DNA of 64,000 nt, taken from assembly GCA_003402315.1 (NCBI GenBank), contig QFXI01000026.1, positions 1 through 64,000 on the forward strand, given 5' to 3'. Each line of letters starts with the position of its first letter. Position 1 is the stretch's first letter. Below, piece after piece: positions 16,304 to 43,478 of this stretch. A program made the position numbers and the translations under genes. Below the pieces are notes generated by a model. It was given only the letters and a program-made list of their open reading frames with translations, searched no databases and was not told where the DNA came from. This DNA is from Candidatus Nitrotoga sp. LAW. Its GTDB lineage: Bacteria > Pseudomonadota > Gammaproteobacteria > Burkholderiales > Gallionellaceae.

Positions 16304-16410
16304 ATATGTAAGGAAACATTTTTTGTAGGTAACAACGTATTGTGACGAAACGGGTTAAGCAGGCAATCCCCGAAGGGAATGCTCGCAAATCTGAATTTTT
16401 AGAGGTACCC
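16304..16410. mobile_element. MITE copy A, truncated at its left end
   Basis: From 16304 the sequence follows the shared core of this family (ATATGTAAGGAAACATTTTT, AACAACGTATTGTGACG). It then has the hairpin CAATCCCCGAAGGGAATGC and the terminal repeat AATTTTTAGAGGTACCC ending at 16410. About 70 bp of the other end is missing compared with copies B and D. It ends 10 bp before the DUF1853 start codon, so it supplies the leader of that gene. The adjacent 16155-16303 contains only a short unassigned reading-frame remnant. Confidence 0.8.
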
Positions 16411-16420
16411 TTTAGTCAAT

Positions 16421-17380
16421 ATGTCTCCCCTCCCGAAAAATTTATTCTTGGATTCATTGCGCGACCCCATTGTTCGTGACCTCGCATGGGTTATCGGTTC
16501 GCCGGGATTGTTGGATGAAACTTGGACCGCTTATGCTGGACGTGTAGTGGATGACGCATGGTGCCGTACGCAATTAAATACATCTGTACAGTGGTTGGCT
16601 GAGTTAGATAATGAACCGCGCAACCTGCACAATTTTATTGCCCAGCGTCCGACACGCCGCCTTGGCCAGTATTTTGAATCGCTTATCGCATTCTGGTTAG
16701 CGCACATACCCAATACACAAATCATCGCCACCAATTTGCAGGTTCAAAATGCGCAACGTACTTTGGGTGAATATGACTTTTTATTTCGTGATGCCGATGG
16801 AAATATTTGTCATTGGGAAACCGCCGTAAAGTTCTACCTGCAAGCGGAACCATTGCTCGAACAACGTGCATTCATCGGCCTTGCGGTACGCGACCGGCTC
16901 GATATTAAATTGGATCGCGTATTCCAGCATCAACTTGAATTAGGCCACACACCCGCTGGGCGCGCAGCACTGCCAACAGGAGTAGTGCTGAAAAGAATAC
17001 AGGCTTTCATCAAAGGCTACTTGTTCTATCCTGCGACACAAGCAGGAAAATATTCTATTCCCGTCACCCCCATCCCTGGCGTATCTGACAACCATTTGTC
17101 CGGCTGGTGGATACGCCACCCGGTTAGCTCACTACCGCAAACAACACCGGATAGCTACTGGACTATATTGCCACGCTTACGATTTTTGGCCCCAGTGCGC
17201 CTGGATGCGGAAGCCAGCGTAATGGGGTGGGCTGAGATATGTGCTGCACTTGATGCACATTTCACGGTTTCCGACGAGTCTGTACAGGTGATCGAGCTCC
17301 AGCGTGATAGGGATAATAGCTGGCACGAAGCGACACGCGGATTTGTGATGTGCAGTATGTGGCCAATCATAAATACCTGA
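16421..17380 (+). CDS. DUF1853 family protein, predicted PD-(D/E)XK-like
   Basis: The protein has 319 residues, the usual length of DUF1853 (PF08907). The conserved blocks are RDPIVRDLAWVIGSPGLL, RLGQYFESLIAFWL, GEYDFLFRDADGNICHWETAVKFYL and HPVSSLP followed by the RLRFLAPVRL segment. The spacing E…G-E-Y-D-F…H-W-E-x-A-V-K-F resembles the catalytic core of a PD-(D/E)XK nuclease fold, but no activity is known to me for this family. Its ATG lies 10 bp from the end of a MITE copy, and transcription may start in the MITE or upstream of it. Confidence 0.85.
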   Translation: MSPLPKNLFLDSLRDPIVRDLAWVIGSPGLLDETWTAYAGRVVDDAWCRTQLNTSVQWLAELDNEPRNLHNFIAQRPTRRLGQYFESLIAFWLAHIPNTQIIATNLQVQNAQRTLGEYDFLFRDADGNICHWETAVKFYLQAEPLLEQRAFIGLAVRDRLDIKLDRVFQHQLELGHTPAGRAALPTGVVLKRIQAFIKGYLFYPATQAGKYSIPVTPIPGVSDNHLSGWWIRHPVSSLPQTTPDSYWTILPRLRFLAPVRLDAEASVMGWAEICAALDAHFTVSDESVQVIELQRDRDNSWHEATRGFVMCSMWPIINT

Positions 17381-17390
17381 GGTAAGCTGA
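17377..17390. repeat. 14-bp repeat CTGAGGTAAGCTGA, copy 1
   Basis: The same 14 bases recur at 36057-36070, in both places directly after the end of a coding region and followed by an A-rich stretch. The meaning is unknown. Confidence 0.4.
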
Positions 17391-17770
17391 GAAAACTGGA
17401 GTGGGCAAAGGTCAAACGGAAGCTGGCAGGTGATGAGGCTGCTGTTGCCCAGAGTGAAGGTGTTGGCGCCGGGAGAGGTCGTTAGCCCAGGCTACGCTTA
17501 CTCCAAAATGACGAATCCGCGTGGGCATAAAGCGTGCCCACCCTATATGGCTTAAGAGAGTAGAGACAAGACTATCGCCTGCCAACTACGCTACCATTTA
17601 TTTTTATCCAAAAAGCCATTCGCATTAAGCTTGTCGGAAATGTTATGCTTCGACAGGCTCAGCACGAACAGCTGCCAAGTTCATTCGTGCCGGATTAATA
17701 GCTCCGCATCGGCCAGTACAACTGGCTTGCGATTGACCTTCAATCGTTCAGTCAATTCAAAAATCTAAAT
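17391..17770. other. intergenic region with repeats upstream of hypC
   Basis: No gene was seen. The region carries the REP-like element at 17519-17546. A CTTCGACAGGCTCAGCACG sequence at 17648-17666 has a core that recurs at 42190-42202 on the other strand. A short dyad GCCAGT-ACA-ACTGGC is at 17712-17726, about 45 bp upstream of hypC. No clear sigma-54 promoter was found. Confidence 0.5.
17519..17546. repeat. REP-like inverted repeat
   Basis: GTGGGCA and TGCCCAC form a perfect 7-bp stem around TAAAGCG, followed by CCTAT. This is the canonical REP design and is related to the copy at 742-770. It fits with the RAYT fragments in this window. Confidence 0.6.
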
Positions 17771-18013
17771 ATGTGCCTAGCCATTCCCGCCCGCATCGAA
17801 CAATTAATCGCTGAAGACAGCGCCATCATCAATCTGGGCGGGATGCGCAAGGAAGTCTCGCTCGCCTTGGTGGAGAATATCGTGGTGGGCGATTATGTGA
17901 TCGTGCATGCCGGCTATGCGCTACAAAAGCTTGACCAGGAAGAAGCTGCACACACGCTGGCGATGTTCGCCGAGATAAGCACGATGAATGACTTGCACGG
18001 TGATGAAGCTTGA
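17771..18013 (+). CDS. hypC: hydrogenase assembly chaperone HypC
   Basis: The protein has 80 residues. It starts MCLAIPARIEQL, with the essential Cys2 that binds HypD and the hydrogenase large-subunit precursor, followed by a small OB-like barrel (INLGGMRKEVSLALV, VGDYVIVHAGYALQKLD). It carries the Fe(CN)2CO unit from the HypCD complex to HoxH. Its TGA overlaps the TTG start of hypD. hypCD stand alone here, about 10 kb before the hox genes. Confidence 0.93.
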   Translation: MCLAIPARIEQLIAEDSAIINLGGMRKEVSLALVENIVVGDYVIVHAGYALQKLDQEEAAHTLAMFAEISTMNDLHGDEA

Positions 18014-19122
18014 AATATGTAGACGAATTTCGCGACGGTGAATTGGCCAAGAATATTGCCGCTAACATCGCGCGCGAAGCGACCGCCGCATCAGGCTATC
18101 GCCTGATGGAATTTTGCGGCGGCCATACTCACGCCCTTTCCCGCTACGGCATTGCGGACTTGTTGCCAGCTAGTGTGCGCATGATTCATGGCCCGGGTTG
18201 CCCGGTCTGCGTGCTGCCGATCGGTCGCGTGGATCAGGCGATTCGGCTGGCACGCGAGTATGGCGTGATCTTGTGCACCTATGCTGACACCATGCGCGTG
18301 CCGTGCTCCGATAATCTCACCCTGATGCGCGCCAAGTCGGGCGGAGCGGATGTGCGCATGATCTACTCGACACAGGATGCGCTGAAGATCGCGCGGGATA
18401 ACCCGGATCGACAGGTAGTATTTTTCGCCATCGGCTTCGAGACCACTACTCCGCCCACGGCTGTGGCGGTCAAACAGGCGACAGCCGAGGGGCTGAAGAA
18501 CTTCAGCGTTTTGTGCAACCACGTACTGACTCCGGCGGCGATGCACGCGATTCTATCTGTAGAGGGCGGAGTGGCGCTGGATGGGTTCGTCGGCCCGGCG
18601 CATGTTTCCACTGTCATTGGCAGCAAACCGTATGAAGTGTTCGCCGACGATTACGGCAAACCGGTGGTGATCGCCGGATTCGAACCGCTCGATGTGATGC
18701 AGGCAATACTCATGCTGATACGCCAGATCAATGAGAGCCGTGCAGCAGTAGAAAACGAATTCACCCGCGCGGTGACGCGTGAAGGCAATCTCAAGGCACA
18801 GGCATTGGTTCAAGAGGTGTTCGAGTTGCGCGAGGTGTTTGAGTGGAGAGGCCTGGGCAGCATCCCTCACAGCGCCTTGAAACTGCGACCCGAATTCGCC
18901 GAATTCGACGCGGAGCTGAAATTCAGCATCGATTATGTGGCCGTGCGCGATCACAAAGCTTGCGAATGCGCCGCTATCCTGCGCGGTGAAAAGCGTCCGC
19001 AGGAGTGCAAGATCTTTGGCACGGTGTGTACGCCGGACAACCCAATCGGCTCCTGCATGGTGTCATCGGAAGGCGCTTGTGCCGCGCATTACAGCTATGG
19101 GCGTTTTCGGGATGTTGCTTAA
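18010..19122 (+). CDS. hypD: hydrogenase maturation protein HypD
   Basis: The protein has 370 residues from a TTG at 18010 that overlaps the hypC stop (TTGA). The conserved cysteine motifs are intact: FCGGHTH with the active Cys, GPGCPVC, and the C-terminal [4Fe-4S] ligand region around CECAAILRGEKRPQECKIFG, CTPDNPIGSCMVSSEGAC. HypD is the scaffold on which iron receives two CN and one CO ligands, acting with HypC and HypE. Family length is normal. It is the only HypD in the window and must serve the group 3d enzyme. Confidence 0.95.
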   Translation: MKYVDEFRDGELAKNIAANIAREATAASGYRLMEFCGGHTHALSRYGIADLLPASVRMIHGPGCPVCVLPIGRVDQAIRLAREYGVILCTYADTMRVPCSDNLTLMRAKSGGADVRMIYSTQDALKIARDNPDRQVVFFAIGFETTTPPTAVAVKQATAEGLKNFSVLCNHVLTPAAMHAILSVEGGVALDGFVGPAHVSTVIGSKPYEVFADDYGKPVVIAGFEPLDVMQAILMLIRQINESRAAVENEFTRAVTREGNLKAQALVQEVFELREVFEWRGLGSIPHSALKLRPEFAEFDAELKFSIDYVAVRDHKACECAAILRGEKRPQECKIFGTVCTPDNPIGSCMVSSEGACAAHYSYGRFRDVA

Positions 19123-19491
19123 TGAATAAGACTCTATGTAATTCGTGTTGGGTAACCCTTTGATGGGTTCAAGATGAAAAATAAAAAAATCAGCTCAAAA
19201 TCCTTTTATCCTTTGACAGGCGGACTTTAAACATAATCTGGCCGGATCAATACGTTAGTTAGGATATATTTGAACTTATTTGCCAGTCAAACTGCCAAAT
19301 TGTACGGTGACTGTACCTTGCCACTTCAAACTTCACTTGGCTATATTAGCTAGATGAAAAATACTTACAATTACACTTATTCGGGCTCACCGAGAGATTC
19401 GGTCAAGCCTAAATGATCAAAAGCTTATAATATAAACTTCTAAATTAACTCAATTTGAGTCATTAATTATCAATTACGTTCAGGAAACCCT
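19123..19491. other. AT-rich intergenic region with one member of a 29-bp repeat pair
   Basis: No gene was seen. A 29-bp sequence at 19223-19251 beginning GACTTTAAACATAATC matches 26771-26799 at 26 of 29 positions. The 3' part, with long A/T runs, is the leader of the DUF3617 gene, which has a CAGGAAACC ribosome site. Confidence 0.45.
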
Positions 19492-20022
19492 ATGCGAAAA
19501 ATCATTCTTTTAATATCATTATTGCTCACGATATCAACAGTAAACTCGGCAGAATCTCATATGCGCCCGGGATTATGGGAAATGACGACGACATCAGGCT
19601 TGTTATCGCTTGTACCAATGATTCCACCGGATCAAATGCAAAACTTGACGAACTTAGCTAAACAGTACGGGCTTGATATGCCCAAGATTAATAATGGTGC
19701 GGCAACATCCCAGGTTTGCATTACCCAGGAAATGGCGAATCAAAAAATTCCAACTGTTTTGAATCAAAACCAATATGGATGTGATGTTAAAAATGCTGTC
19801 CAAAATGGAAACGATTACAAAATAAACCTTATCTGTGAAAACTCTGTCCTTAAGGGGAATGGGGTAACTGAGGGAATTTTTACGAGCCCAGAGAGTTTTA
19901 CCGGGCGGACTGAATTTAACGGAGTTGTACAGGGCAATCCTGTTAGTGAACGCGCTTACACTGACGGCAGATGGCTTAGTGAAAACTGCGGAACAGTGAA
20001 ACCTTTCCGTGATCCTCGTTAA
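19492..20022 (+). CDS. exported DUF3617 protein
   Basis: The protein has 176 residues with a signal peptide (ILLISLLLTISTVNSA-ES). The mature start RPGLWEMTTT and the later CITQEMANQKIP and C-terminal GNPVSERAYTDGRWLSENCG fit DUF3617 (PF12276). Four cysteines in the mature part suggest periplasmic disulfides. Family members are uncharacterised. It lies upstream of the efflux operon but is separated from it by about 170 bp and a weak hairpin, so it is probably a separate unit. Confidence 0.78.
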   Translation: MRKIILLISLLLTISTVNSAESHMRPGLWEMTTTSGLLSLVPMIPPDQMQNLTNLAKQYGLDMPKINNGAATSQVCITQEMANQKIPTVLNQNQYGCDVKNAVQNGNDYKINLICENSVLKGNGVTEGIFTSPESFTGRTEFNGVVQGNPVSERAYTDGRWLSENCGTVKPFRDPR

Positions 20023-20030
20023 GCAAATTT

Positions 20031-20047
20031 ACGGCACTTTATGCCGT
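20031..20047 (+). terminator. weak hairpin terminator candidate
   Basis: ACGGCA-CTTTA-TGCCGT forms a 6-bp stem just after the DUF3617 stop, followed by only TTTG. The short T-tract makes factor-independent termination doubtful. Confidence 0.3.
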
Positions 20048-20195
20048 TTGGGAAAACTTATCCCATAACGCCCCGAAGCTGAAGTGCGGTAAAATGAACC
20101 GAGAAATTAACCGTTCATGCGGGGAAAAGCTGATCATCTGAATGATTTTCAAAATCTGTTACTACTAAATTTCAATAACAATAACTACTCCAGGT

Positions 20196-21803
20196 TTGCA
20201 ATTTAAAATTAAAAATTTATATATAAATGGCTGCCCCGCCTTTATAAGGTTTATTTCACGGTTAACCGCAGGGTTGCTATTGGGAGCCACACTATCGCTG
20301 TTTGGTTGTACGAGTGTAGGGCCTGATTTTAAGCAGCCTGACCCGCCCGCCGTAACAAGTTACACCACTCAAAAATTACCGGAACAAACCGCAACAGCAT
20401 TAGGTTCCTTTGGCAAAGCGCAACGTTTCGTGCCCGGCAAAGATGTACCAGTGGACTGGTGGCGAAATTTTGGCTCAGCCAAACTTAATACGCTCATCGG
20501 CCAAGCCTTCAGCGCCAGTCCAACATTAGATGCGGCGCAAGCTACGCTGCTGCAAGCACAGCAAACCTATACTGCGCAAATGGGTTCCTTGCAATATCCC
20601 AAGGTGAACGGCAAGCTGGATGGACAGCGACAAAAATTCAATCCTTCAATTTTTGGCCAGCCGGGCGGCAGCAGAATATTCGATTTGTATAACGCGGGCG
20701 TAACGGTTAGTTATAACCTCGATCTTTTCGGTGGTAACCGACGCTCGCTCGAATCTTTTGCCGCGCAGGCTGATTATCAACGTTACCAGCTTGAAGGCGC
20801 GCGGCTGACGCTTGCCGCCAATATCACGACAACGGCAATGTCACAGGCACAATTTGCCGCACAGATTGATGCCACCGTGGCCATTTTGGCGGCGCAAAAT
20901 AAACAGCTAGATATTGCGAGACAACGCTTCAAACTGGGCGCTGTACCCCGCAGTGATGAATTCACTTTGCTTACCCAAGTAGAGCAAACCCGCGCTAGCA
21001 TTCCGCTCTTGCGTAACAATCTTGAAAAAGCAAATAACTTACTTGCTGTGTTAGTGGGTCAGTTACCTGGTGCGGCGCAAATACCAAAATTTACTTTAGC
21101 GGATTTTAATCTGCCGACAGATATTCCTCTTGTCATCCCTTCAGAATTAGTGCGCCAGCGACCTGACATTCAAGCGTCTGAGGCTTTGTTACATGTAGCG
21201 AATGCACAATATGGCGTGGCCATGTCCACTGCCTATCCGCAAATTAACTTATCGTCTAATCTGAACTCGCAGGCACTTGCCGCATCCAGCTTATTTGGAG
21301 CCGGATCAATGGTTTGGAGCTTGGTAGGCCAAATAGCGCAGCCATTGTTCAATGCTGGCCTCAAAGCCGGGATTAAGTCAGCGAAAGCGGGGGTTAGTGC
21401 AGCAACGGCTAACTATCGCCAAACCGTACTGCAAGCTTTACGCAATGTTGCTGATGTTCTGCATACACTGGACAACGACGCACAAATATTGCAAGCGCAA
21501 GCCGCCGCTGATGCTTCGGCGCAAGCGTCGCTGAATCTTATCCAACAACAATTTTTATTAGGAAGCGTGAGTTATTTGCAGCTACTTACCGCGCAGCAGC
21601 AGGTACAACAAACCCAGATCAACTTAATTGCCGCACAAGTTCAGCGTTTAACTGACACCGCAGCGCTTTATCAAGCTATGGGCGGTGGTTGGGCTACCGC
21701 GTCAAAAAAAGAGACGGCGCTCCTATCGCAACGTACTGAATTAGTATTGCAAAATACCACCGGGCACAAAAATTTTGTGCGCCATCTTTGGAACCCAAAT
21801 TGA
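20196..21803 (+). CDS. outer-membrane efflux lipoprotein (NodT/OprM family)
   Basis: The protein has up to 535 residues with a TTG start at 20196; no ATG fits the signal region. A lipoprotein signal peptide (TAGLLLGATLSLFGC-TSVGPDF) gives a lipidated Cys, followed by the standard family start VGPDFKQPDPP. Two OEP repeats (PF02321) follow, with SYNLDLFGGNRRSLE and RQRPDIQASEALLHVANAQYG typical of RND outer-membrane factors. It forms the trimeric outer-membrane duct for the adaptor and pump encoded next. Spacing to the adaptor gene is 15 bp. Confidence 0.9.
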   Translation: MQFKIKNLYINGCPAFIRFISRLTAGLLLGATLSLFGCTSVGPDFKQPDPPAVTSYTTQKLPEQTATALGSFGKAQRFVPGKDVPVDWWRNFGSAKLNTLIGQAFSASPTLDAAQATLLQAQQTYTAQMGSLQYPKVNGKLDGQRQKFNPSIFGQPGGSRIFDLYNAGVTVSYNLDLFGGNRRSLESFAAQADYQRYQLEGARLTLAANITTTAMSQAQFAAQIDATVAILAAQNKQLDIARQRFKLGAVPRSDEFTLLTQVEQTRASIPLLRNNLEKANNLLAVLVGQLPGAAQIPKFTLADFNLPTDIPLVIPSELVRQRPDIQASEALLHVANAQYGVAMSTAYPQINLSSNLNSQALAASSLFGAGSMVWSLVGQIAQPLFNAGLKAGIKSAKAGVSAATANYRQTVLQALRNVADVLHTLDNDAQILQAQAAADASAQASLNLIQQQFLLGSVSYLQLLTAQQQVQQTQINLIAAQVQRLTDTAALYQAMGGGWATASKKETALLSQRTELVLQNTTGHKNFVRHLWNPN

Positions 21804-21818
21804 GCATGGAGTATTTTC

Positions 21819-22961
21819 ATGACTAAAGGAACGACCAAACGCATGGTCATCATGTTGCTATTGGCCGCATTAGTGTTTGGCGGAATTTATGCTTTTCAAC
21901 AATTTCGCAACAAAATGATACAACAGTCTATCCGAGGACAAGCTAGCCCTCCGCAAAGCGTATCTACCACCGTGGCGCAAACATCTACTTGGCAACCTTT
22001 AGTCGAAGCGGTAGGTAATCTGCGTGCCTCTAATGGCACCAGCCTGGCAGCCGAGGTCAGCGGCATAGTCACCGCCATACACTTTGATTCTGGAGCGATG
22101 GTAAAAGCGGGGCAGCTAATATTAGAACTAAATGCCGCGCCACTTAAAGCCCAGCTCGAACAGCTCAAGGCGGCCGCCCGGCTCGCCAAACAGAATTACG
22201 ACCGCGATCTTGCCCAACTCAAAATACAAGCGGTTAGCCAAGCTGCGGTAGATATTGCTGCGGCCAATTTGAAAAGTGCTTTAGCCCAGGTAACGATGCA
22301 AGAATCCATCATTGCGCAGAAAAGTATCCACGCTCCCTTTGCTGGCCAGCTCGGTATACGTCAAGTAGACCTTGGTCAATATCTGGCGCCAGGCACTACC
22401 CTGGTGAATCTGCAAAAACTTGATCCTATGTATCTGGACTTTACGGTACCACAGGCTCAAATTGACTTAGTCCATGTTGGCGAGAACGTTACCGTACAAA
22501 CCAATGCATTTCCAAACAAGGTTTTCACCGGCACCATTTCCGCGATTGAGCCACAGGTGGATATATCAACACGTAATCTTAAAGTACGGGCAAGTCTGGC
22601 CAATCCAAAAGGTGAATTGCTGCCCGGATTATTCGCAACGGCGCGGGTGAAGAGAGGGGAAGAAAAACAGTACGTCACCGTGCCAAATTCAGCCATTGCC
22701 TATAACCCCTATGGCAGCACCGTGTTTATTGTGAAAAATGAAGGAAAAGGAACCGATGGCAAGCCTAAACTGGTGGCCGCGCAGCGTTTTGTTACGACCG
22801 GCTTGACACGTGGCGATCAGGTGGCCGTGCTTAGCGGTCTGCAAATGGGTGAGGTTGTGGTCACTTCGGGTCAACTCAAACTACGCAATGGCACCCCGGT
22901 AATCGTAAATAATAGCGTGCAACCGTCTAACAATCCCAATCCTGAGGTAAAAGACGAATGA
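21819..22961 (+). CDS. RND efflux periplasmic adaptor (HlyD/MFP family)
   Basis: The protein has 380 residues. An N-terminal membrane helix is at about residues 8-26 (MVIMLLLAALVFGGIYAFQQF). It then shows a lipoyl half (NGTSLAAEVSGIVTAIHFDSGAMVKAGQLILELN), a helical hairpin, the second lipoyl half (IHAPFAGQLGIRQVDLGQYLAPG), and beta-barrel and membrane-proximal domains. It bridges the inner-membrane pump and outer-membrane factor. Its TGA overlaps the first ATG of the pump frame (ATGA), so the three genes form one operon. Confidence 0.92.
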   Translation: MTKGTTKRMVIMLLLAALVFGGIYAFQQFRNKMIQQSIRGQASPPQSVSTTVAQTSTWQPLVEAVGNLRASNGTSLAAEVSGIVTAIHFDSGAMVKAGQLILELNAAPLKAQLEQLKAAARLAKQNYDRDLAQLKIQAVSQAAVDIAAANLKSALAQVTMQESIIAQKSIHAPFAGQLGIRQVDLGQYLAPGTTLVNLQKLDPMYLDFTVPQAQIDLVHVGENVTVQTNAFPNKVFTGTISAIEPQVDISTRNLKVRASLANPKGELLPGLFATARVKRGEEKQYVTVPNSAIAYNPYGSTVFIVKNEGKGTDGKPKLVAAQRFVTTGLTRGDQVAVLSGLQMGEVVVTSGQLKLRNGTPVIVNNSVQPSNNPNPEVKDE

Positions 22962-22981
22962 ACAGCACTGCTGGAGCTGTG

Positions 22982-26053: not shown

Positions 26054-26091
26054 AAGATTTTGCTATAGCTTCTTCGTATGAAACGCCATAT

Positions 26092-26269
26092 GAGCACCTC
26101 TAAAAATTCAGATTTGCCAGCATCCCCTTCGGGGATTGCCTGCTTAACCCGTCTCGTCACAATACGTTGTTGCTCACAAAAATATTCATTACATATCAAT
26201 TACATGCCGCGTCAACATTTTTTATTCGCGCCTAGTCTTGCTTAGAACTCTTAATTTTTAGAGGCGCCC
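26092..26269. mobile_element. MITE copy B, full length (178 bp)
   Basis: Terminal inverted repeats GAGCACCTCTAAAAATT and AATTTTTAGAGGCGCCC bound the element. Inside are the hairpin ATCCCC-TTCG-GGGAT, the core GTCACAATACGTTGTTGCTC, and TTATTCGCGCCTAGTCTTGC. ATAT on both flanks is compatible with a 4-bp target duplication. It has no reading frame that fits a transposase. It lies just after the RND operon, between convergent genes. Confidence 0.88.
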
Positions 26270-26274
26270 ATATA

Positions 26275-31436: not shown

Positions 31437-32936
31437 ATGGAACAGAACGCCGGCCCCTCATCCGACATTGACCCTCCGCCTAATCTCCGGCGCGTTGCCA
31501 TTGACCCGATCTCGCGTGTTGAGGGGCATGGCAAAATCACGCTACTGCTCGACGCGGATAACCATATCCATGAGGCACGTTTTCACATCGTCGAGTTTCG
31601 GGGTTTCGAAAAATTCATTCAGGGGCGCCCCTACTGGGAAGTGCCGTTTATCGTTCAGCGGTTGTGCGGGATCTGTCCGGTCAGCCATCAACTGGCGGCG
31701 GCCAAGGCGGTGGATCAGTTGGTCGGTATGGAGCGGCTCACGCCGACGGCCGAGAAGCTGCGCCGCCTGCTGCACTTTGGTCAGACCTTGCAATCGCATG
31801 CACTGCACTTTTTTCATTTGTCTTCTCCCGATTTGCTGTTCGGCTTCGGCAGCGATCCGGTGCAGCGCAATATCTTCGGCGTGCTGGAAAAATATCCCGA
31901 TCTCGCGCTGAAAGGCGTGAAATTGCGCAAGTACGGGCAACAGATCATCGCGGCGATCAGCGGCAAGCGCATCCACGGCACCGCCACCGTGCCGGGTGGC
32001 ATGAACAAGCCGCTCACCGTCGCCGAGCGCGATACCTTGCTGGTCGATATAAAAAACATTCTGGCCTGGAGCCAGGAAGCGCTGGCAGTGAACGAACAGA
32101 TTCATACCGCGCATCCCGAGCATTACCGCTTCGCCACTATTCATAGCAACTTCCTGAGCGTGGTTGGAGGCGGCGGGGAGCTGGAGTTATATCACGGCGG
32201 ATTGCGCGCGCGTTCGGCGACGGGTGCGATGCTTTTCGACCAGTTCGACTATCGCGGCTTTCAGGACATCCTGCGCGAAGAAGTGCGCCCATGGAGTTAT
32301 ATGAAGTTTCCGTATTTGGTCGAGCTGGGCAAGGAGCAAGGCTGGTACCGTGTCGGTCCACTGGCGCGCGTGAACAACTGCGATTTCATTTCAACGCCTT
32401 TGGCGGAAGCCGCGCGCAAGCACTTCAGGGAATTCGGCCGGGGCGGTTTCGTGCAAGACACGCTGGCCTATCACTGGGCGCGCATGATCGAAGCGCTGCA
32501 TTGCGCGGAATCGATTCAGGCGTTGCTGCATGATTCAGATATTACCGGCACCGACCTGGTCGCAGATTTGGGCGAAAAGCGCAGTGCGGGGATCGGCGTG
32601 ATCGAAGCGCCGCGCGGGACACTATTCCATCATTATCAGATCGATGAGCAAGGGCTGATTGTTAAGGCCAATCTGATCGTCTCGACTACCAGCAACAATC
32701 AGGCGATGAACGAATCGGTGCGCTCGGTCGCCAATGAATACCTTGAAGGCCGCGAGATCACCGAAGGCTTGCTGAACCATCTGGAAGTCGCAGTGCGCGC
32801 CTACGATCCCTGCCTGTCCTGTGCCACTCATGCCTTGGGCAAGATGCCGTTGCAGGTGGAGTTACTTGATGCCGACGGTACGCTGCTTGATCGGCTGGTC
32901 AAGGGTAGCAATGGCGTGATCGAACGAACGGTCTGA
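31437..32936 (+). CDS. hoxH: HoxH: large subunit of group 3d [NiFe] hydrogenase
   Basis: The protein has 499 residues. The two metal-binding motifs are intact: L1 RLCGICPVSHQ near residue 77 and L2 DPCLSCATH near residue 458, whose four Cys hold Ni and Fe(CN)2CO. The wording of both motifs is that of group 3d enzymes. About 34 residues follow the conserved His of L2 and should be removed by HoxW after nickel insertion; this tail is somewhat longer than I recall for R. eutropha HoxH. The enzyme reversibly couples H2 oxidation to NAD reduction in the cytoplasm. Confidence 0.96.
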   Translation: MEQNAGPSSDIDPPPNLRRVAIDPISRVEGHGKITLLLDADNHIHEARFHIVEFRGFEKFIQGRPYWEVPFIVQRLCGICPVSHQLAAAKAVDQLVGMERLTPTAEKLRRLLHFGQTLQSHALHFFHLSSPDLLFGFGSDPVQRNIFGVLEKYPDLALKGVKLRKYGQQIIAAISGKRIHGTATVPGGMNKPLTVAERDTLLVDIKNILAWSQEALAVNEQIHTAHPEHYRFATIHSNFLSVVGGGGELELYHGGLRARSATGAMLFDQFDYRGFQDILREEVRPWSYMKFPYLVELGKEQGWYRVGPLARVNNCDFISTPLAEAARKHFREFGRGGFVQDTLAYHWARMIEALHCAESIQALLHDSDITGTDLVADLGEKRSAGIGVIEAPRGTLFHHYQIDEQGLIVKANLIVSTTSNNQAMNESVRSVANEYLEGREITEGLLNHLEVAVRAYDPCLSCATHALGKMPLQVELLDADGTLLDRLVKGSNGVIERTV

Positions 32937-32941
32937 GCGCC

Positions 32942-33430: not shown

Positions 33431-33459
33431 ACCGATCATGGAACTGGATTATCTAAGCC

Positions 33460-33801: not shown

Positions 33802-33822
33802 AAAGATTTTTGTAGAGGTTTT

Positions 33823-33960
33823 GGGCACTTCTAAAAATTCAGAGTTCTAAACACTAGGCGCGAATAAAAAATGTTGACGCAGCATATAACTGATATGTAA
33901 GGAAATATTTTTTGTGAGCAACAACGTATTGTGACGGAATCTGATTTTTTAGAAGTGCCC
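33823..33960. mobile_element. MITE copy C, internally deleted (138 bp), between hypA and hypB
   Basis: The ends are GGGCACTTCTAAAAATTC and AATCTGATTTTTTAGAAGTGCCC-like sequence, ending at 33960. The core TTGTGAGCAACAACG and the TAGGCGCGAATAAAAAATG region are present, but the ATCCCC-TTCG-GGGAT hairpin block is missing. Flanks are T-rich, so a target duplication (TTT) is uncertain. It separates hypA from hypB by 176 bp in an otherwise tight gene string and ends 17 bp before the hypB ATG. Confidence 0.82.
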
Positions 33961-33977
33961 TTTGGAAAGGTTTAGAT

Positions 33978-35988: not shown

Positions 35989-36065
35989 AAATGGCTGGCA
36001 CGCTAACCTGGACGCGCGGCGGCCCATTCGATCGCATGAAAGTGTACATGCCATGGCTGAGGTAA
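35985..36065 (+). CDS. possible 26-residue ORF or gene remnant after hypF
   Basis: The ATG at 35985 overlaps the hypF TGA (ATGA), and the preceding AAGGGAA could serve as a ribosome site. The peptide contains WTRGGPFDRMKVYMPWLR. No family is recognised. It ends inside the 14-bp repeat at 36057-36070, which suggests it may be the truncated start of a further accessory gene rather than a real small protein. Confidence 0.25.
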   Translation: MKMAGTLTWTRGGPFDRMKVYMPWLR

Positions 36066-36070
36066 GCTGA
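36057..36070. repeat. 14-bp repeat CTGAGGTAAGCTGA, copy 2
   Basis: Identical to 17377-17390. It lies at the end of the short frame that follows hypF. Confidence 0.4.
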
Positions 36071-36134
36071 AAACCAAAGAGTCCAGCGTTTCACTAAAAT
36101 GACGAAACGGAGGAACAAAATAGAAAGGTATTTT

Positions 36135-36953
36135 TTATACGGGCTTATAGCCCACGCTAATGAGAATTTCAACATTTAGCCAAATGCCTTGCTCGTCGGC
36201 AAGTAATTCTACTTCTTCCTGATGTGCTTGACGGAAGCTTGCCAGTTCAGGGGAAGAAAGCTGACTCAATAAACCCCGGAAGCCGCTATACCATAAAATA
36301 TCCCACCATTCTTCAAACCCGGCAAGATAGTAACCAACCTGATATGTCTGCGTATGCAATTGTTCCAGCCCCGCTGATTGATACAAAGTGCGGATTTTCT
36401 CTACACTATCCAGCCGTTTCCAGGACAAAGCTGGCATAGCTACCCCATAAGCCAAAATGCGGTCGATAAATTTTTGCGACAGGGGTTCCATAACCACGCC
36501 CGTAAAACTTGAGATTCCAATAGCGCCGCCGGATTTAACAAATTTGGCGATTGTCTTGAATCCGGCCTCCATATCTGACAGGAAGAAGATGCCAAAACCG
36601 CAGCAAGCGGCATCGAATGAGTCGGCGGTAAAATTCGAGGCTTCTATATCCATACACAAAAAATCGAAATTACTTAACTGCTGTTCCTGGGCTTTGGCCT
36701 TGGCTTGCGCCAACATTCCATCGGATAAATCAATGGCCGTTACATGCCCTGCACCCAACCGCTGTGCACAAGCCAACGCAACTGAACCTGTGCCAGTGGC
36801 TACATCCAAAATATGTTCATTTCCAGCAAATTTCATGCTGTCCGCTAAATATTCTGCTGCCGCTGAAAAAAAGCGCAGCGCAGGTTTGTCATAGCCTTCT
36901 GCCGCATTATTAAAGGTTTCTTTGATTTTATATTTGCGTTCTTGCATATCCAT
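36135..36953 (-). CDS. class I SAM-dependent methyltransferase (UbiE-like)
   Basis: The protein has 272 residues. SAM-binding motif I is ILDVATGTGSVALACAQRLG, then VTAIDLSDGMLAQAKAKA (acidic loop), FDAACCGFGIFFLSDMEAGF and a GGAIGIS strand. The N-terminal KETFNNAAEGYDKPALRFF resembles UbiE/COQ5-type small-molecule methyltransferases. The substrate is unknown. It is convergent with the hypF string and divergent from the DUF2325 gene. Confidence 0.85.
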   Translation of the reverse strand: MDMQERKYKIKETFNNAAEGYDKPALRFFSAAAEYLADSMKFAGNEHILDVATGTGSVALACAQRLGAGHVTAIDLSDGMLAQAKAKAQEQQLSNFDFLCMDIEASNFTADSFDAACCGFGIFFLSDMEAGFKTIAKFVKSGGAIGISSFTGVVMEPLSQKFIDRILAYGVAMPALSWKRLDSVEKIRTLYQSAGLEQLHTQTYQVGYYLAGFEEWWDILWYSGFRGLLSQLSSPELASFRQAHQEEVELLADEQGIWLNVEILISVGYKPV

Positions 36954-37368
36954 TTACCATTTCCCGAATTAGGTTTAATTGGGCGCACATAACAACATTT
37001 TATAGCACGGATACCTATTAAATTAATACCCATATTTCGACGCAACTATATGGCTGCAATAAGGTATTCCAGCTATCCAGGGAGAAAAGTTTCTTGAAAT
37101 TGCATCATTTATGATGCTGTGATTGACGTCCCTCTTGTTGCTTGCCCTTGATGCACTAGATGATAATAATTATCAAATACATTTACATTGCAAATGATAA
37201 CTGTTATCGTTAGAGCAGTTGTTAGCTATAAACAGCGCTAACTCAGAATCATTTAAATAAAATAAAAATCAAATACATAACAGCTTAACCGTTGGCCATA
37301 CTGCTTTTTCATTTGGTAATAAGCAGAAACTGCGGCCAATTAATATGCATCAACCGTAAAGGAAAAAC
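36954..37368. other. 415-bp intergenic region with Fur-like boxes
   Basis: Apart from the two Fur-type palindromes at 37162-37208 no gene or repeat was recognised. The region is AT-rich and supplies divergent promoters for the methyltransferase and the DUF2325/FMN pair. The DUF2325 start is preceded by AAAGGAAAAAC. Confidence 0.5.
37162..37208. promoter_or_regulatory. two Fur-box-like 6-1-6 palindromes
   Basis: GATAATAATTATC at 37162-37174 and GATAACTGTTATC at 37196-37208 are both perfect 6-1-6 dyads close to the Fur consensus unit GATAAT-x-ATTATC. Their centres are 34 bp apart. They lie about 160-200 bp upstream of the DUF2325 gene, which suggests iron-dependent control by Fur. Confidence 0.65.
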
Positions 37369-37701
37369 ATGAACGCAATGGTAATAGGTGCAGATCATTT
37401 GGGAAATATCCCTAAACTTCTTTCTGACTGGGATATAAACATTACCCAGCATGTCACGGGACGGCATGTGTCACATCAACGAAAACCACAAGGATTGCCC
37501 AGGAATACAGAACTTTTGATATTATTCACCGATTTCTTGGGACATAACGTAATGCGCCATTTTCGTAACATGGCGCAAGCACAAGGTGTACCTTTTATCG
37601 CTTGCCGCCGATCTGCAAGCTGCTTGGCACAGTCGCTGGAGTATTGTTTTAATAGAAAAGATGATCAATCAAAATGCCAAAATTGTCCATTCCGCCCCTG
37701 A
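37369..37701 (+). CDS. DUF2325 family protein
   Basis: The protein has 110 residues. It shows the DUF2325 pattern of an N-terminal nucleotide-fold-like strand (MVIGADHLGNIPKLLSDW), a central HxxG/H segment (QHVTGRHVSHQRK) and LLILFTDFLGHNVMRHFRNMAQAQGVPFIACRRS. The C-terminus has a Cys cluster (KCQNCPF). Members are small cytoplasmic proteins without known function. It overlaps the FMN-binding gene by 28 bp. The Fur-like boxes upstream suggest a role under iron limitation. Confidence 0.75.
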   Translation: MNAMVIGADHLGNIPKLLSDWDINITQHVTGRHVSHQRKPQGLPRNTELLILFTDFLGHNVMRHFRNMAQAQGVPFIACRRSASCLAQSLEYCFNRKDDQSKCQNCPFRP

Positions 37702-38207
37702 CTTTTTTTATCGCTTTTTTGCTTATGTTATCGCCATGCTTGGCACAAGCCGTAGAACACGTTTACCAGCAGCCAGAAGAATTCATTGATGAATTATTTA
37801 AGGTAAAGCCGAAAGTAAAATTGCTATTGTTGACTAAGGATATGCAATCCGAGGTTTCCCGCATCCTTGGCCATGCACCCAGACAGTTGCGACAACGATA
37901 TTGGAGTGAGGGTGCGCGAACATTATGGATTCTGGAAGAGATCGGTAAAGATGATCCAATTACCGCAGGGTTTGTCGTAAAAGAGGGCCGGATCGAACAG
38001 GCTAAAGTATTGATTTACCGTGAGCATAGGGGGATGGAAGTGCGCTTTCCAGCTTTTTTGAAGCAATTCACCGGTGTTTCCCTAAGCAGTGGAAATAATC
38101 TTGATCGGCAAATCGACGGTATTTCCGGCGCCACGCTTTCGGTGCATGCCATGGAACGCATGGCGCGTACCGCACTGTATTTTGACAAACTTAGCCGCAC
38201 CAAATAA
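37674..38207 (+). CDS. exported FMN-binding domain protein
   Basis: The protein has 177 residues. An N-terminal signal (PPLTFFIAFLLMLSPCLAQA-VE) is followed by a single FMN-binding domain (PF04205). DGISGATLSVHAM carries the S-G-A-T motif whose Thr takes a covalent FMN in NqrC/RnfG proteins. It would act as a small periplasmic flavin electron carrier. The overlap with DUF2325 and the shared Fur-like promoter suggest an iron-related redox task, for example reduction linked to iron uptake; this is inference. Confidence 0.82.
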   Translation: MPKLSIPPLTFFIAFLLMLSPCLAQAVEHVYQQPEEFIDELFKVKPKVKLLLLTKDMQSEVSRILGHAPRQLRQRYWSEGARTLWILEEIGKDDPITAGFVVKEGRIEQAKVLIYREHRGMEVRFPAFLKQFTGVSLSSGNNLDRQIDGISGATLSVHAMERMARTALYFDKLSRTK

Positions 38208-38244
38208 ATTCAAATCCATTGCATTGCTGACCACAATTCCTGGC

Positions 38245-40215
38245 TTATTGAATAACGTTCTTTAGTTGCTCAAGAATCGCCGGGTTTTCCAGCGTCGAAA
38301 TGTCCTGCGTTATTTCTTCTCCCTTGGCAATGGCGCGCAACAGGCGACGCATGATCTTGCCGGAGCGTGTCTTGGGCAGGTTGTCACCGAAGCGAATTTC
38401 GTCTGGCTTAGCGATTGGGCCGAGTTCCTTGCTAACCCAGTTTCGCAGGCTTTCCGAAACTTGTTTTGCAATAGTGGCATCCTCTGGCCGCGAGCCTTTC
38501 AATACCACAAACGCCACTATGGCCTCTCCTTTTATATCATGCGGCTTTCCGACGACAGCGGCTTCCGCCACCAGCGGATTTGACGCCAGCGCAGATTCTA
38601 TTTCCATAGTGCCCAAACGGTGGCCGGATACTTTCAGTACGTCGTCAATGCGTCCCAATATCCAGAAATAACCGTCCTCATTGCGGTGTGCTGAATCGCC
38701 CGCCAAGTAAGCGCCTTTCATTTCTTCTGGAAAATAGCCTTTGCGATAGCGCTCATCATCGCCCCATATGGTACGGATTTGCGATGGGAAAGAACGTTTA
38801 ATGACGAGAAAGCCTCCATGTTGGTCGTGTACTTCGTCACCTGCTTCGTTGACGATAGCGGCCATTATGCCGGGCAGCGGCAGGGTGCAGGAACCAGGTT
38901 TGGTCGCCATTGCTCCCGGCAGAGGTGCAATCATGTGACAGCCGGTTTCGGTCTGCCACCAGGTGTCCACAATAGGACAGCGCGACTGGCCGACTACGGT
39001 GTAATACCACATCCATGCGTCTGGATTGATCGGCTCGCCTACACTACCGAGCAGACGCAGACTGGAAAGGTCGTATTGCTTCGGTAATTCGCCCCCTAAT
39101 TTAATCAGCGAGCGGATGGCAGTGGGCGCAGTGTAAAAAGTAGTGACCTGATGGTCCTGAATCATTTTCCAAAAACGCCCGGCATCGGGCCAAGTGGGCA
39201 CGCCCTCAAATATTACCTGTGTCGCACCCATCGCCAGCGGGCCATATGTCACATAGCTGTGGCCAGTCACCCAGCCCACGTCAGCGGTGCACCAAAAAAC
39301 GTCAGTAGGCTTGTAGTCAAATACCCATTGCATGGAAACCATGGTGCCCAACAGATAGCCGCCGCTGGAATGCTGCACTCCTTTGGGTTTTCCGGTAGAA
39401 CCTGAGGTGTATAAAATAAATAATGGATGTTCCGCGCCCACCCATTCCGGTTCGCATGTGAATGGAAGATCGGCGATCAGATCATGCCACCACAGGTCAT
39501 GTTTCGCATTCCACTGCACATCATTGCCCGCACGTTTATAAACAATGACGCTATGCACAGCATCGCAACCGCCCATACTAAGCGCCTCATCCACAGCGGA
39601 TTTGAGCGGCATCATCTTGCCGCCACGAAGTTGCGCATCGGCGGTAATGACGGCGCATGCCTGCGCATTTTCGATACGCTCATTTAGGCTTTTGGAAGAG
39701 AAGCCGCCAAAAACGACTGAATGGATTGCGCCAATGCGCGCGCATGCCTGCATCGCTACTACTACCTCAATACTCATGGGCATATAGATAACCACACGGT
39801 CGCCCTTCTGAATATTGCGCGACTTCAGCGCATTGGCGAACTGGCATACGCGGGCGTGCAACTCACGGTAAGAAATCTTGGTCACCTGGCCATCATCCGC
39901 TTCAAAAATCAGTGCAGTTTTTTCAGGTTGCGTCACCAGATGCTTGTCCAGGCAGTTATAAGAAACATTTAATTCACCATCCGCAAACCACTCGTAAAAT
40001 GGCGCGCGGCTCTCGTCCAACACCGTATTGAACGACTTGCGCCATACAATATGCTCGCGTGCCAACCGTGCCCAATACCCTTCATAATTTTGTGCCGCCT
40101 CCACGCATAGTGCCTGGTACGCTGCCATGCCAGAAACATTAGCCTGTTCGGCAAATTCATTGGCAGGCTGGAAAACGCGGGTTTCTTGCAAAACTGATTG
40201 GATGTTGGTGGGCAT
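38245..40215 (-). CDS. acs: acetyl-CoA synthetase (AMP-forming)
   Basis: The protein has 656 residues, normal for Acs. It has the ANL-family motifs [12 protein letters not shown] (P-loop), [10 protein letters not shown], the hinge region [23 protein letters not shown], and the C-terminal [14 protein letters not shown] with the catalytic Lys that Pat/PatZ-type enzymes acetylate. It activates acetate to acetyl-CoA through acetyl-AMP in the cytoplasm. It is monocistronic, and MITE copy D lies 140 bp upstream of its start. Confidence 0.96.
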
Positions 40216-40355
40216 GACGCTCCCTCGGTATGGTTAATGTTTCATATTTTTGGCGGGATTTAATGTAGATTTATTTTCGGGTAGCGTCAACATTAAAGCT
40301 CTCAGATGTAATTGGGTCTATAAAGGTCGCATGAAGTGGTGTGCTTTTAGCTAAT

Positions 40356-40535
40356 GGACACCTCTAAAAATTCAGGTTTGCGAGCATCCCCTTCGGGGAT
40401 TACCTGCTTAACACGTCTCGTCACAATACGTTGTTGCCCACAAAAAATGTTTCCTTACATATCAATTATATGCTGCGTTAACATTTTTTATTCGCGCCTA
40501 GTCTTATTTAGAGCTCTTAATTTTTAGAGGTGCCC
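40356..40535. mobile_element. MITE copy D, full length (180 bp)
   Basis: Ends GGACACCTCTAAAAATTC and TTAATTTTTAGAGGTGCCC bound the element, with the hairpin ATCCCC-TTCG-GGGAT, the GTCACAATACGTTGTTGCCC core and the ATTCGCGCCTAGTCTTATTT block. TAAT stands directly before the left end and directly after the right end, a clean candidate 4-bp target duplication. It lies between the divergent leader of acs and the end of the GGDEF gene. Confidence 0.9.
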
Positions 40536-40604
40536 TAATACTCCCTCGTGCATGTAATGCATTGCTAGGCTCCATTTTTTATTGCGCTCTCCGCCGGCGA
40601 TACC

Positions 40605-41945
40605 TCAGCATCGGTCGCCCAGCGTAGCGTTTTTAGTTCGCGCCTGATTTGCAGCCAACGGCTCTACCATAGCTGATTCAACGCGGTTGCGCCCGCCCGA
40701 TTTGGCCTTGTACATCGCTTCATCGGCGGCTTTAAACAGGGTTTTGAAATCTACTACCATGCCCTTGGGCACTGTGGCCAAACCGATGCTGCCGGTGACA
40801 AAAATTCCCTCGGGCTGGCTGGCCTCAATTTTCTTTAGCAGTTTTTCGGCGAAGCCGATGGCGTTGGTCCGGTCACGGTTGATCAGGGTGACACAGAATT
40901 CTTCGCCACCTGCCCGCGAAGCAATGTCCCCGCTCAAACAACACTCGCGTATCACCTTGGCTGTCTCAAACAGGACGATGTCGCCTACGTCATGGCCCAT
41001 GGTGTCGTTGATATTCTTGAAATGATCCAGGTCAAGCAGCAAAAGGCTAACTGGAATGCCATGTTTCATCGCCTCAGTCATCCGCCGGGAACCGACCTCT
41101 GACATATAGTGCCGATTAAACAGACCGGTGAGCTGGTCAGTTAGCGCCAGACGTCGCAGGTGATCACGTTGGGCCTCAACTTGGTCAAACAATTGCTTAT
41201 GCTTGACCATATTGTGTACCCGAACTTCAAGTTCCTTTGGGGTAACCGGTTTCGCTACAAAGTCGTTGGCACCATAACCAATGACATCAAACTGGCGCTC
41301 TTTGCTGGTGATGCCGGAAATAGCAAGAAAAGGTACACGACAGTAGGGTTCGTCAAGCCGCCTGATGGCGCGCACCAGGCCAAGCCCGGTGAGATCGCCT
41401 TCAAGCTGAACATCCGAGATCACGATGTCGAATTTTCGTTTCCTGAAGATTTCAAAGGCGTCTTCGGCGCTCGCCAATGTCGTCACCATAAGGCCCATGC
41501 CCCGTAATATTTCGCTCAGAAAATTGGCGATTGTTGGGCTGTCTTCGACCAACAGTGCATTACCGGTTAGCGCTTCAGCCGTCCGGCTAGCCTTTTCATA
41601 TTCGGCGATGTAATCAGCCAGTGCGCCAAGGTTAGTTTTGTAAAATATCTGGGTGATGCCTGCTTCCTTAGCATCTATTTCGAGATTTGGATCTTCTGAC
41701 CCGGTAAGCAGCAGAATCGGGATGTTATGGCCTGAGGGATGTTTCCTGATTTCCTTGCATAACTCCATACCGGATCCATCAGGCAGTATGCCTTCAACGC
41801 AGACAACGTCCATTTCGCCTGCCACGATAAACATCCGCGCGTCTTGAACTGAATAGGTAAAAGTAAATTCTTCTGAAAGAAATGACAAATGCCGCCGGAT
41901 GGCGTTTTGCGAAAAATTTGACGAAACCAATATTAGGACTTTCAT
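40605..41945 (-). CDS. PleD-like diguanylate cyclase with two receiver domains
   Basis: The protein has 446 residues: receiver 1 (1 to about 120), receiver 2 (about 128-245) and GGDEF (about 280-420). Receiver 2 keeps the phospho-acceptor in DIVISDVQLEGD and the Lys in VAKPVTP. Receiver 1 reads DVVCVEGILPDG, with Glu where the acceptor Asp should be, so it is probably a dimerising pseudo-receiver. The cyclase motif is AGGEEF, an active variant. The residues that normally form the RxxD inhibitory site read LSGD, so product inhibition may be absent. It makes cyclic di-GMP in response to an unknown kinase. Confidence 0.9.
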   Translation of the reverse strand: MKVLILVSSNFSQNAIRRHLSFLSEEFTFTYSVQDARMFIVAGEMDVVCVEGILPDGSGMELCKEIRKHPSGHNIPILLLTGSEDPNLEIDAKEAGITQIFYKTNLGALADYIAEYEKASRTAEALTGNALLVEDSPTIANFLSEILRGMGLMVTTLASAEDAFEIFRKRKFDIVISDVQLEGDLTGLGLVRAIRRLDEPYCRVPFLAISGITSKERQFDVIGYGANDFVAKPVTPKELEVRVHNMVKHKQLFDQVEAQRDHLRRLALTDQLTGLFNRHYMSEVGSRRMTEAMKHGIPVSLLLLDLDHFKNINDTMGHDVGDIVLFETAKVIRECCLSGDIASRAGGEEFCVTLINRDRTNAIGFAEKLLKKIEASQPEGIFVTGSIGLATVPKGMVVDFKTLFKAADEAMYKAKSGGRNRVESAMVEPLAANQARTKNATLGDRC

Positions 41946-42258
41946 TATTCATCTTTAATTTAAATAAATATTTGAGTAAATTAACACGAAATCAGTAGCT
42001 GCCGATGAAATCATTTTTTGCCTACATCAATGCCAATATGGCACAAAATTGAGTCAGCAGTAGTGGCACACCATTGATCCGGTTAGTTAAAGTTTTGATG
42101 CCGCATATTTCACACGAGCATCCTGAAAATATTTTTTGACACGCTCAATTATTAATCCGGCACGGTGAAGTATTAACCCCGTTCTGGCCGAGCCTGTCGA
42201 AGGATGAGCGGATTTACTTCTTGGGGAGATTGAAAATTGATTGCCCACTTCTATTTCA
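41946..42258. other. intergenic region with short dispersed repeat
   Basis: No gene was seen. GAGCCTGTCGAAG at 42190-42202 is the reverse complement of the CTTCGACAGGCTC found at 17648. The remainder is unremarkable AT-rich sequence running into MITE copy E. Confidence 0.45.
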
Positions 42259-42398
42259 GGGCACCGCTAAAAATTTAGAGTTCTATAATTGATATGTAAA
42301 GAGACATTTTTTGTGGACAACAACGTATTGTAACGAGACGGGTTAAGCAGGCAATCCCCGAAGGGGATGCTCGGAAATCTGAATTTTTAGAGGTGCCC
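42259..42398. mobile_element. MITE copy E, internally deleted (140 bp), upstream of hypE
   Basis: Ends GGGCACCGCTAAAAATTT and GAATTTTTAGAGGTGCCC bound the element. The hairpin block and the AACAACGTATTGTAACG core are present, but the ATTCGCGCCTAGTC block is missing, the opposite deletion to copy C. TTCA precedes the left end and follows the right end, a candidate 4-bp duplication. It ends 13 bp before the hypE ATG, so hypE expression must start in or before the element. Confidence 0.88.
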
Positions 42399-42411
42399 TT
42401 CATATAGAGCC

Positions 42412-43461
42412 ATGAATAGAGTCAAACCAAATTACTCGCGCCCGCTTGATTTTAAACAAGGACGGGTAGAGATGTCACATGGTTCCGGTGGGCGCGCCAT
42501 GGCGCAATTGATCGCCGAGTTGTTCACTACCGGTTTTGATAACGCATATCTGGCACAGGGCAACGATGGCGCGTTACTACCGCAAATTGCCGGGCGGCTG
42601 GTGATGTCTTGCGACGGCCACGTCGTGTCGCCGTTGTTCTTCGCGGGCGGTGATATCGGCTGCCTGTCAGTGCATGGCACCATTAACGATGTCGCGATGA
42701 TGGGAGCGAGGCCGTTGTATTTGGCGGCTTCTTTCATACTCGAAGAAGGCTTTCCTCTCGCCGATCTGAAATGCATCGTCGCGTCCATGGCGAACGCTGC
42801 AAGAGTCGCGGGTGTACCCATCGTCGCAGGTGATACTAAAGTGGTGGAGCAGGGCAAGGGCGATGGGGTATTCATCACCACTACCGGAGTCGGTGTGGCA
42901 CGTGAGGACATCACTCTGTCCGGCGATCTTGCGCAACCGGGCGACACTATCCTGCTGTCCGGCACGATAGGGGATCACGGTATGGCGGTGCTTTCGCAAC
43001 GTGAAAACCTGACTTTCGATGCGCCCATCGTGTCGGATACGGCGGCGTTGCATGGGTTGGTCGCAGCCATGCTGGACAGCGGAGTGAAGTTGCGCGTGCT
43101 GCGCGACCCGACGCGCGGCGGGCTGGCGACGACACTCAATGAGATCGCCAAACAATCCGGCGTGGGCATGATGCTGCATGAATCTGCCATTGCGGTAAAT
43201 CAGCCGGTTGAAGCAGCCTGCGAGTTTCTCGGGCTGGATCCACTATATGTCGCCAACGAAGGCAAACTGGTAGCCATTTGTGCACCGGAGGATGCCGGGC
43301 GCTTGCTTGAAGTGATGCGTGCCCATCCGCTGGCGCGTGAGGCGGCCATCATCGGAGAGATCACAGAAGATGCCCATGGATTTGTGCAAATGATCACCAA
43401 GCTCGGTGGCTGTCGTATCGTTGATTGGCTGGCAGGTGAGCAATTGCCGAGGATCTGTTGA
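42412..43461 (+). CDS. hypE: hydrogenase maturation protein HypE
   Basis: The protein has 349 residues. The AIR-synthase-like fold shows MSHGSGGRAMAQLI, LSVHGTINDVAMMGARPLYL, VAGDTKVVEQGKGDG and RDPTRGGLATTLNEIA. The C-terminus ends PRIC, with the terminal Cys that receives the carbamoyl group and is dehydrated to thiocyanate. HypE works with HypF to make the CN ligands. It is detached from the other hyp genes, preceded by MITE copy E, and its TGA directly abuts a solitary MITE end. Confidence 0.95.
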   Translation: MNRVKPNYSRPLDFKQGRVEMSHGSGGRAMAQLIAELFTTGFDNAYLAQGNDGALLPQIAGRLVMSCDGHVVSPLFFAGGDIGCLSVHGTINDVAMMGARPLYLAASFILEEGFPLADLKCIVASMANAARVAGVPIVAGDTKVVEQGKGDGVFITTTGVGVAREDITLSGDLAQPGDTILLSGTIGDHGMAVLSQRENLTFDAPIVSDTAALHGLVAAMLDSGVKLRVLRDPTRGGLATTLNEIAKQSGVGMMLHESAIAVNQPVEAACEFLGLDPLYVANEGKLVAICAPEDAGRLLEVMRAHPLAREAAIIGEITEDAHGFVQMITKLGGCRIVDWLAGEQLPRIC

Positions 43462-43478
43462 GGGCACCTCTAAAAATC
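43462..43478 (+). repeat. solitary end of the GGGCACC MITE family
   Basis: GGGCACCTCTAAAAATCC starts at the base after the hypE stop and ends four bases before the stop of the convergent PatZ-like gene. No internal MITE sequence is attached. It probably marks a breakpoint of a rearrangement that joined hypE to the truncated patZ-like gene. Confidence 0.7.

Follow-up and report, generated by a model that had tools for sequence, protein, structure and literature searches.

Type II MITEs with IS5-family ends and a nested 39-bp hairpin in Candidatus Nitrotoga

Results

The first 64,000 nucleotides of contig QFXI01000026.1 (assembly GCA_003402315.1; this whole stretch is referred to as the window) come from Candidatus Nitrotoga sp. 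LAW, a member of a genus of nitrite oxidisers in the family Gallionellaceae. They contain five copies, lettered A to E, of a short dispersed repeat that an earlier note, made from the sequence alone, had taken for a family of non-autonomous miniature inverted-repeat transposable elements (MITEs). All five are present at the positions that it gave, and when copy D was used as a BLASTN query against the window, copies A, B, C and E were all recovered, with E values from 2.7e-66 to 3e-40. Four of the copies also contain a 39-bp hairpin, which we call the module. These features, together with two candidate lone ends and one empty target, are as follows (designations such as G003 stand for individual genomes).

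16304..16410, minus strand: MITE copy A, long type with one end lost, 93% identity to copy D across 103 bp
16348..16386, minus strand: 39-bp module in copy A, 28-bp core at 16359-16386 plus 11-nt tail
26092..26269, plus strand: MITE copy B, long type, 178 bp, ATAT flanks
26116..26154, plus strand: 39-bp module in copy B, core at 26116-26143 plus 11-nt tail
33823..33960, minus strand: MITE copy C, short type, 138 bp, without the 39-bp module
40235..40238, no strand assigned: empty target TAAT
40356..40535, plus strand: MITE copy D, long type, 180 bp, TAAT flanks
40380..40418, plus strand: 39-bp module in copy D, core at 40380-40407 plus 11-nt tail
42259..42398, minus strand: MITE copy E, long type minus 40 bp internally, 140 bp, TTCA flanks
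42336..42374, minus strand: 39-bp module in copy E, core at 42347-42374 plus 11-nt tail
43462..43483, plus strand: lone 22-bp MITE end, directly 3' of the stop codon of an AIRS-domain (HypE-like) gene
12137..12150, plus strand: possible lone 14-bp MITE end, a perfect match that could be chance

The identification of these copies as MITEs is secure: they are shorter than 500 bp, have terminal inverted repeats and no coding capacity, are intergenic and are accompanied by target-site duplications and empty-site alleles. We gathered 161 distinct elements, of which 148 entered the statistics, the others having been dropped for short or repeated flanks, poor ends or odd lengths. Two sizes are preferred: exactly 141 bp in 88 of the 148 and exactly 180 bp in 35. 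Exact 4-bp duplications flank 96 of the 148 (shuffled mean 9.1, maximum 20), beginning with T in 79 cases and ending with A in 83, and no other duplication length from 2 to 9 exceeded its shuffled maximum in this set. In the window, the duplications that had been proposed for copies B, D and E proved to be real, and the flanks of copy C (TTTT and TTTG) agree at three of four bases.

Movement is apparent from filled and empty alleles at two sites. At 40235-40238, G003 carries a 180-bp copy with TAAT on both sides, and the window, G017 and G009 are empty. The copy C element is absent from all six relatives in which both flanks were found (nine searched); the junctions of these empty sites vary by up to 20 nt, and the exact original site is therefore not restored in every case.

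The 141-bp form is for the most part a single imperfect palindrome with the ends GGGCACCTCTAAAAATT. When 34 diverse copies (from 90 elements of 141 bp, near-duplicates removed) were folded with RNAalifold, the consensus contained 40 pairs, 10 of which have changed on both sides. Folding z-scores for the two copies folded were -4.94 (copy D as RNA) and -4.84 (copy C as DNA), part of the symmetry of the fold coming from the inverted ends themselves. Among 30 of the 32 matches to copy D in the organism's own genome (2.8 Mb), none has its midpoint inside an open reading frame (ORF) of at least 100 codons, such ORFs covering 80% of the flanks, and 22 of the 30 lie between co-directional ORFs.

Of 61 genomes, the own one among them, 29 contain the repeat family. 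Within the genus it occurs in 16 of the 18 others, in other genera of the same taxonomic family in 11 of 18 genomes, and outside that family in one of 24 (G051). In the own genome, searching with the 17-bp end at up to three mismatches gave 47+36 = 83 matches, and searching with its reversed control gave 6+2 = 8. When named genomes were scanned with a pattern, at least 118 stretches were returned, on sequences labelled Nitrotoga, Sideroxydans, Sideroxyarcus, Nitrosomonas, Nitrosovibrio and others; an exact pattern search of viral contigs gave 0 stretches, and a search of plasmids gave no match. Two family matches (L206 and L175) are on contigs labelled Moraxellaceae and Gammaproteobacteria, which would mean either horizontal spread or mis-binned contigs.

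The earlier note had described two internal deletions, and these fared differently. Copy E has indeed lost 40 bp of its right arm, and this is a true internal deletion. The ATCCCC-TTCG-GGGAT block, present in A, B, D and E and absent from C, belongs to the 39-bp module, whose length is that of the long form minus the short form. Copy C has not undergone an internal deletion, since what it is missing is a hairpin inserted separately; the 39 bp are best taken as an insertion that produced the long forms. The module consists of GCGAGCA, a 13-nt stem-loop, TTGCCTGC and an 11-nt tail, and its standard site is in the left arm of the MITE at TTT^C (the caret marks the point of entry).

In relatives the module is also found at other MITE sites and in unrelated palindromes, with empty counterparts present. 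The copies classified are those in fetched loci, at most 30 per search, and further places are listed. Two of the 23 non-standard copies (L220 and L253) look like chance matches. An empty counterpart was available for 14 non-standard copies, and after removal of four decayed standard sites (L008, L042, L208 and L316) there are ten for which the fetched sequences include an empty counterpart spanning the junction, gap-free in six cases. Seven of the ten are at other places in the MITE (L056, L318, L332; L319, L321; L340; L058), two are in the CTCCCCTTGTCAGGGGAG repeat (L322 and L333, the latter having filled and empty copies within one locus), and one (L337) is in another sequence that is empty in a Nitrotoga contig. 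Across 399 genomes of the order (own included), the module was found in 11, belonging to families f1, f16, f46 and f15, using a pattern that required one T upstream and neither TTT nor the downstream C.

Among the 29 non-standard insertions, TTT^C was the site of 18 and TGT^C of eight (26 of 29 together), although L042, L257 and L316 among the 29 also look like decayed standard sites. On the opposite strand, a TKT^C insertion falls between the G and the remainder of GAAA or GACA loops. In 12 of the 29 the entry point is an NNN^N loop closing a perfect stem of 5 bp or more, as against 3 among 1218 control positions shifted within those sequences; seven genomes and no fewer than four stem sequences supply the 12, which are not independent events because some of the hosts are repeats of one family. 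The module joins show no target duplication, and the bases upstream of most copies are TTT or TGT.

Elements derived from IS200/IS605 make no target duplication and insert 3' of a fixed short motif, and the module has both traits. The absence of duplication and the fixed 5' target would point to a Y1-like mode of movement. The module was found in none of 46 fetched loci with a Y1 transposase (95 Y1 matches were counted in 19 genomes, the f46 and f15 genomes lying outside that search).

The earlier note had guessed at an IS5-like donor for the MITEs. Insertion sequences (ISs) of the IS5 subgroup generate 4-bp target duplications. We searched for DDE transposases in the genus and then queried one match in 61 genomes. 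Relatives in the genus and beyond carry IS5-family elements of 1.25-1.34 kb with MITE-type ends and 4-bp duplications, and to the extent that sequence comparison can tell, the guess stands. Nine end pairings lie 900-1600 bp apart; one (L103) is false, joining an IS end to a MITE end, and matching 4-bp flanks (AGAT, CTAA, ATAA, TTAT and TTAA) occur in five of the eight that remain. The ends of IS and MITE are alike over about 14-16 bp. Transposases of G012, G006 and G057 score above the NCBIfam NF033581 (IS5) cut-off, and Pfam places PF01609 in two proteins and PF05598 in one of these two. The best donor candidate is in the single-contig genome G008 of the same genus: a 1320-bp IS with GGGCACCTCTAAAAATTCA at one end, a TTAA duplication and an open frame of 376 codons, with a PF01609 match and 39% identity to the IS5 protein P0001 as the whole basis of its IS5-type assignment. 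Ends in common with an autonomous IS are found in related genomes, and the own genome shows only a decayed collinear relative (C30:330-1407) with five stops in the part matched to P0001. At several places on G051:C1 there are nine near-identical IS5 copies and one decayed copy, with the transposase split into slightly overlapping frames of 302 and 196 aa, as in programmed frameshifting.

Of the two solitary ends reported earlier, that at 43462 holds and that at 12137 is unproven. The former, a 22-bp stub with the sequence GGGCACCTCTAAAAATCCAATT, is also found in G003, G009 and G013 of the same genus, and is inherited, being common to four genomes. Other sequence lies between its flanks in G014 (1.3 kb), G018 (1.0 kb) and G005 (0.6 kb), and just one flank is within the examined stretch for G001, G012 and G017. 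This fits an old MITE that has lost most of its length along with a neighbouring stretch.

Two further observations concern decayed or shortened relatives of the family. Three genomes of the genus have a decayed MITE end immediately before the same gene (L258, L259 and L260, in G006, G008 and the own genome at C9 near 268540); the gene product starts, on reading by eye, with MSDAEM in two of the three, and the decayed end keeps AGAGGTG or GGAGGTG at the Shine-Dalgarno position, making a ribosome-binding role possible. At G006:C1:887340-887389 is a 50-bp unit with GGGCACTTCTATAAATCC at both ends, perhaps a minimal derivative of the MITE family, and another lone end of that type is at 1561748.

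As for the surroundings, alignments of 39900-44000 to genomes of the genus end near copies D and E (among the matches listed), and both copies therefore lie at synteny breaks. The window encodes a nickel-dependent hydrogenase (31437-32936) and an AIR-synthase-related, HypE-like protein (42412-43461), in agreement with the hydrogenase genes known in Nitrotoga. The copies are not parts of a larger gene. No Rfam family matches the window at gathering score, and a known RNA family is ruled out on this ground as the identity of the repeats.

Discussion

Taken together, these results lead us to a probability of about 0.87 for the following reading as a whole: the copies are type II MITEs with IS5-family ends, and the 180-bp form is such a MITE with a 39-bp hairpin inserted. 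We suggest that an IS5-family transposase, encoded by an IS of its own with the same ends, would insert the 141-bp palindrome in trans, each insertion duplicating 4 bp that are usually T..A and AT-rich; the copies seen are intergenic. The hairpin would have entered the left arm at TTT^C to give the 180-bp form, after which an IS5-type transposase would multiply both. Such mobilisation in trans is very likely. In relatives the module appears also to have moved separately, to other MITE sites and into other palindromes, often into their loops. Tentatively, and at somewhat less than even odds, we propose that the hairpin moves as an independent unit, which an enzyme would insert between TKT and C with a preference for hairpin tetraloops and no duplication, the IS5-driven MITE being a secondary vehicle.

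Several observations weigh against this interpretation or against parts of it. Three of the eight IS pairings have no duplication, no intact donor was found in the own genome (where some transposase matches are at contig ends), and in the IS ends tested, likeness to the MITE arms outside the terminal repeat does not rise above chance (12 IS ends, each scored by its best match among 8 arms, gave a lowest single p of 0.015). Because no likeness extends past that repeat, the two share ends only, short of demonstrated descent, and recent deletion from the ISs found is ruled out as the origin of the MITEs. The 14 module matches that the own genome has at 0-1 mismatches all fall at the one standard place in MITE copies, and that genome therefore shows no independent movement of the module; of its 21 matches with two mismatches four were inspected, and three are decayed MITE ends by their look (L262 is the fourth). 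For the most part, the empty counterparts of the module are further copies of the host repeat and not orthologous sites. A strict loop rule is contradicted by 17 of the 29 insertions, including every one in a MITE, which lie outside such loops. The covariation term of the consensus fold, computed without regard to relatedness, is small (-1.24 kcal/mol).

Two alternative explanations concern the module. The long form could be ancestral, the short form having arisen by precise deletion of a block that was never mobile alone; both forms do coexist in the own genome and in Nitrosomonas-labelled contigs, and the confinement of the good block matches in the own genome to the MITE family is what such a history would give. 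The 39-bp unit at other MITE positions and in non-MITE palindromes, with empty counterparts, largely refutes it, and we consider it very unlikely. Alternatively, the module might be copied from hairpin to hairpin as DNA replicates, through template switching or gene conversion and without an enzyme of its own. Many of the non-MITE hosts are hairpins with a TTTC or TGTC loop, the module has a small hairpin apex of its own, and the lack of a Y1 transposase beside it in the loci examined would be expected. The recurrence of both boundaries and of the 39-bp length across hosts and families argues against this, and we regard enzyme-free spread as unlikely.

The MITEs themselves might be kept mainly for a host function, for example as RNA hairpins that set mRNA stability, and not as selfish DNA. 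The pairs changed on both sides, the position of most own copies between co-directional ORFs and the Shine-Dalgarno-like motif kept upstream of one gene in three genomes are all in keeping with this. The sites vary between species, however, and a mobilisation mechanism could by itself maintain palindromy, such that a host function is in our view quite unlikely to be the main reason for their persistence. As to the donor, the lack of MITE-IS homology past the ends could indicate another source, perhaps an IS family with similar ends that has since been lost. We give this only a slender chance, given IS5-family ends that are alike over about 14-16 bp, the same duplication length and one such element in the same genus. 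Mobilisation of the MITEs by an IS5-family transposase remains the explanation that we prefer.

Correia/NEMIS elements of Neisseria, short hairpin repeats, likewise occur in long and short forms. Type II MITEs of bacteria are described as smaller than 500 bp, with inverted ends, duplications, intergenic positions, hairpins and IS homology at the ends only (PMC10969869); the Nitrotoga family agrees in all of these, and since its IS homology stops at the ends it belongs to type II by the definition in that source, although here there are two fixed sizes produced by a nested hairpin, and several genera of the Nitrosomonas-Gallionella group are involved. MITEAba12 of Moraxellaceae (113 bp, 16-bp ends, 9-bp duplications; proposed parent ISAba12; PMC6382973) is similarly a short non-coding MITE that several species of a bacterial family share and that has a putative IS parent, whereas the elements described here measure 141 or 180 bp with 4-bp duplications; no nested module is mentioned in the part of that account drawn on here. 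Correia/NEMIS elements share the hairpin, inverted ends and target duplications with our family but have TA termini (PMC2229807), as opposed to GGG ends and 4-bp duplications.

The module has its own relatives in kind. Repetitive extragenic palindromic sequences (REPs) mostly begin with GTAG or GTGG (or TGTAG, TGTGG), REPINs are inverted doublets of them, and both are linked to RAYTs, REP-associated tyrosine transposases (PMC3116915, PMC2817692). Like these, the module is a tiny imperfect palindrome that appears to spread as a non-autonomous unit; unlike them, it has no GTAG or GTGG foot, is usually single, and had no Y1 gene beside it in the loci mentioned above. The BOX, RUP and SPRITE repeats of pneumococcus are small and insert into each other (PMC10969869); here, in contrast, the nested unit is 39 bp long and enters TKT^C, often in a hairpin loop. 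IS1397, ISKpn1, IS621 and other ISs target REP palindromes (PMC1525189) and so resemble the module in their choice of palindromes, but those are full ISs with a transposase gene, and the module is too small for a gene.

Titles and abstract beginnings of the literature on Nitrosomonas, Nitrotoga and Gallionella repeats did not reveal this MITE family, and four sequence words of the MITE and the module occur in none of the main texts searched. A MITE is a known kind of element, and what is unusual here is the completeness of the evidence, which extends from duplications and empty sites to a candidate donor within the genus. The surprise is the nested 39-bp hairpin, to which the earlier misreading of copy C led us and which behaves like a mobile unit: its recurring boundaries, 4-base target, frequent entry into loops and presence in several families raise the question of what moves such a unit. 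A nested module of this type offers a simple explanation for long and short forms of palindromic repeats, which are easily misread as internal deletions.

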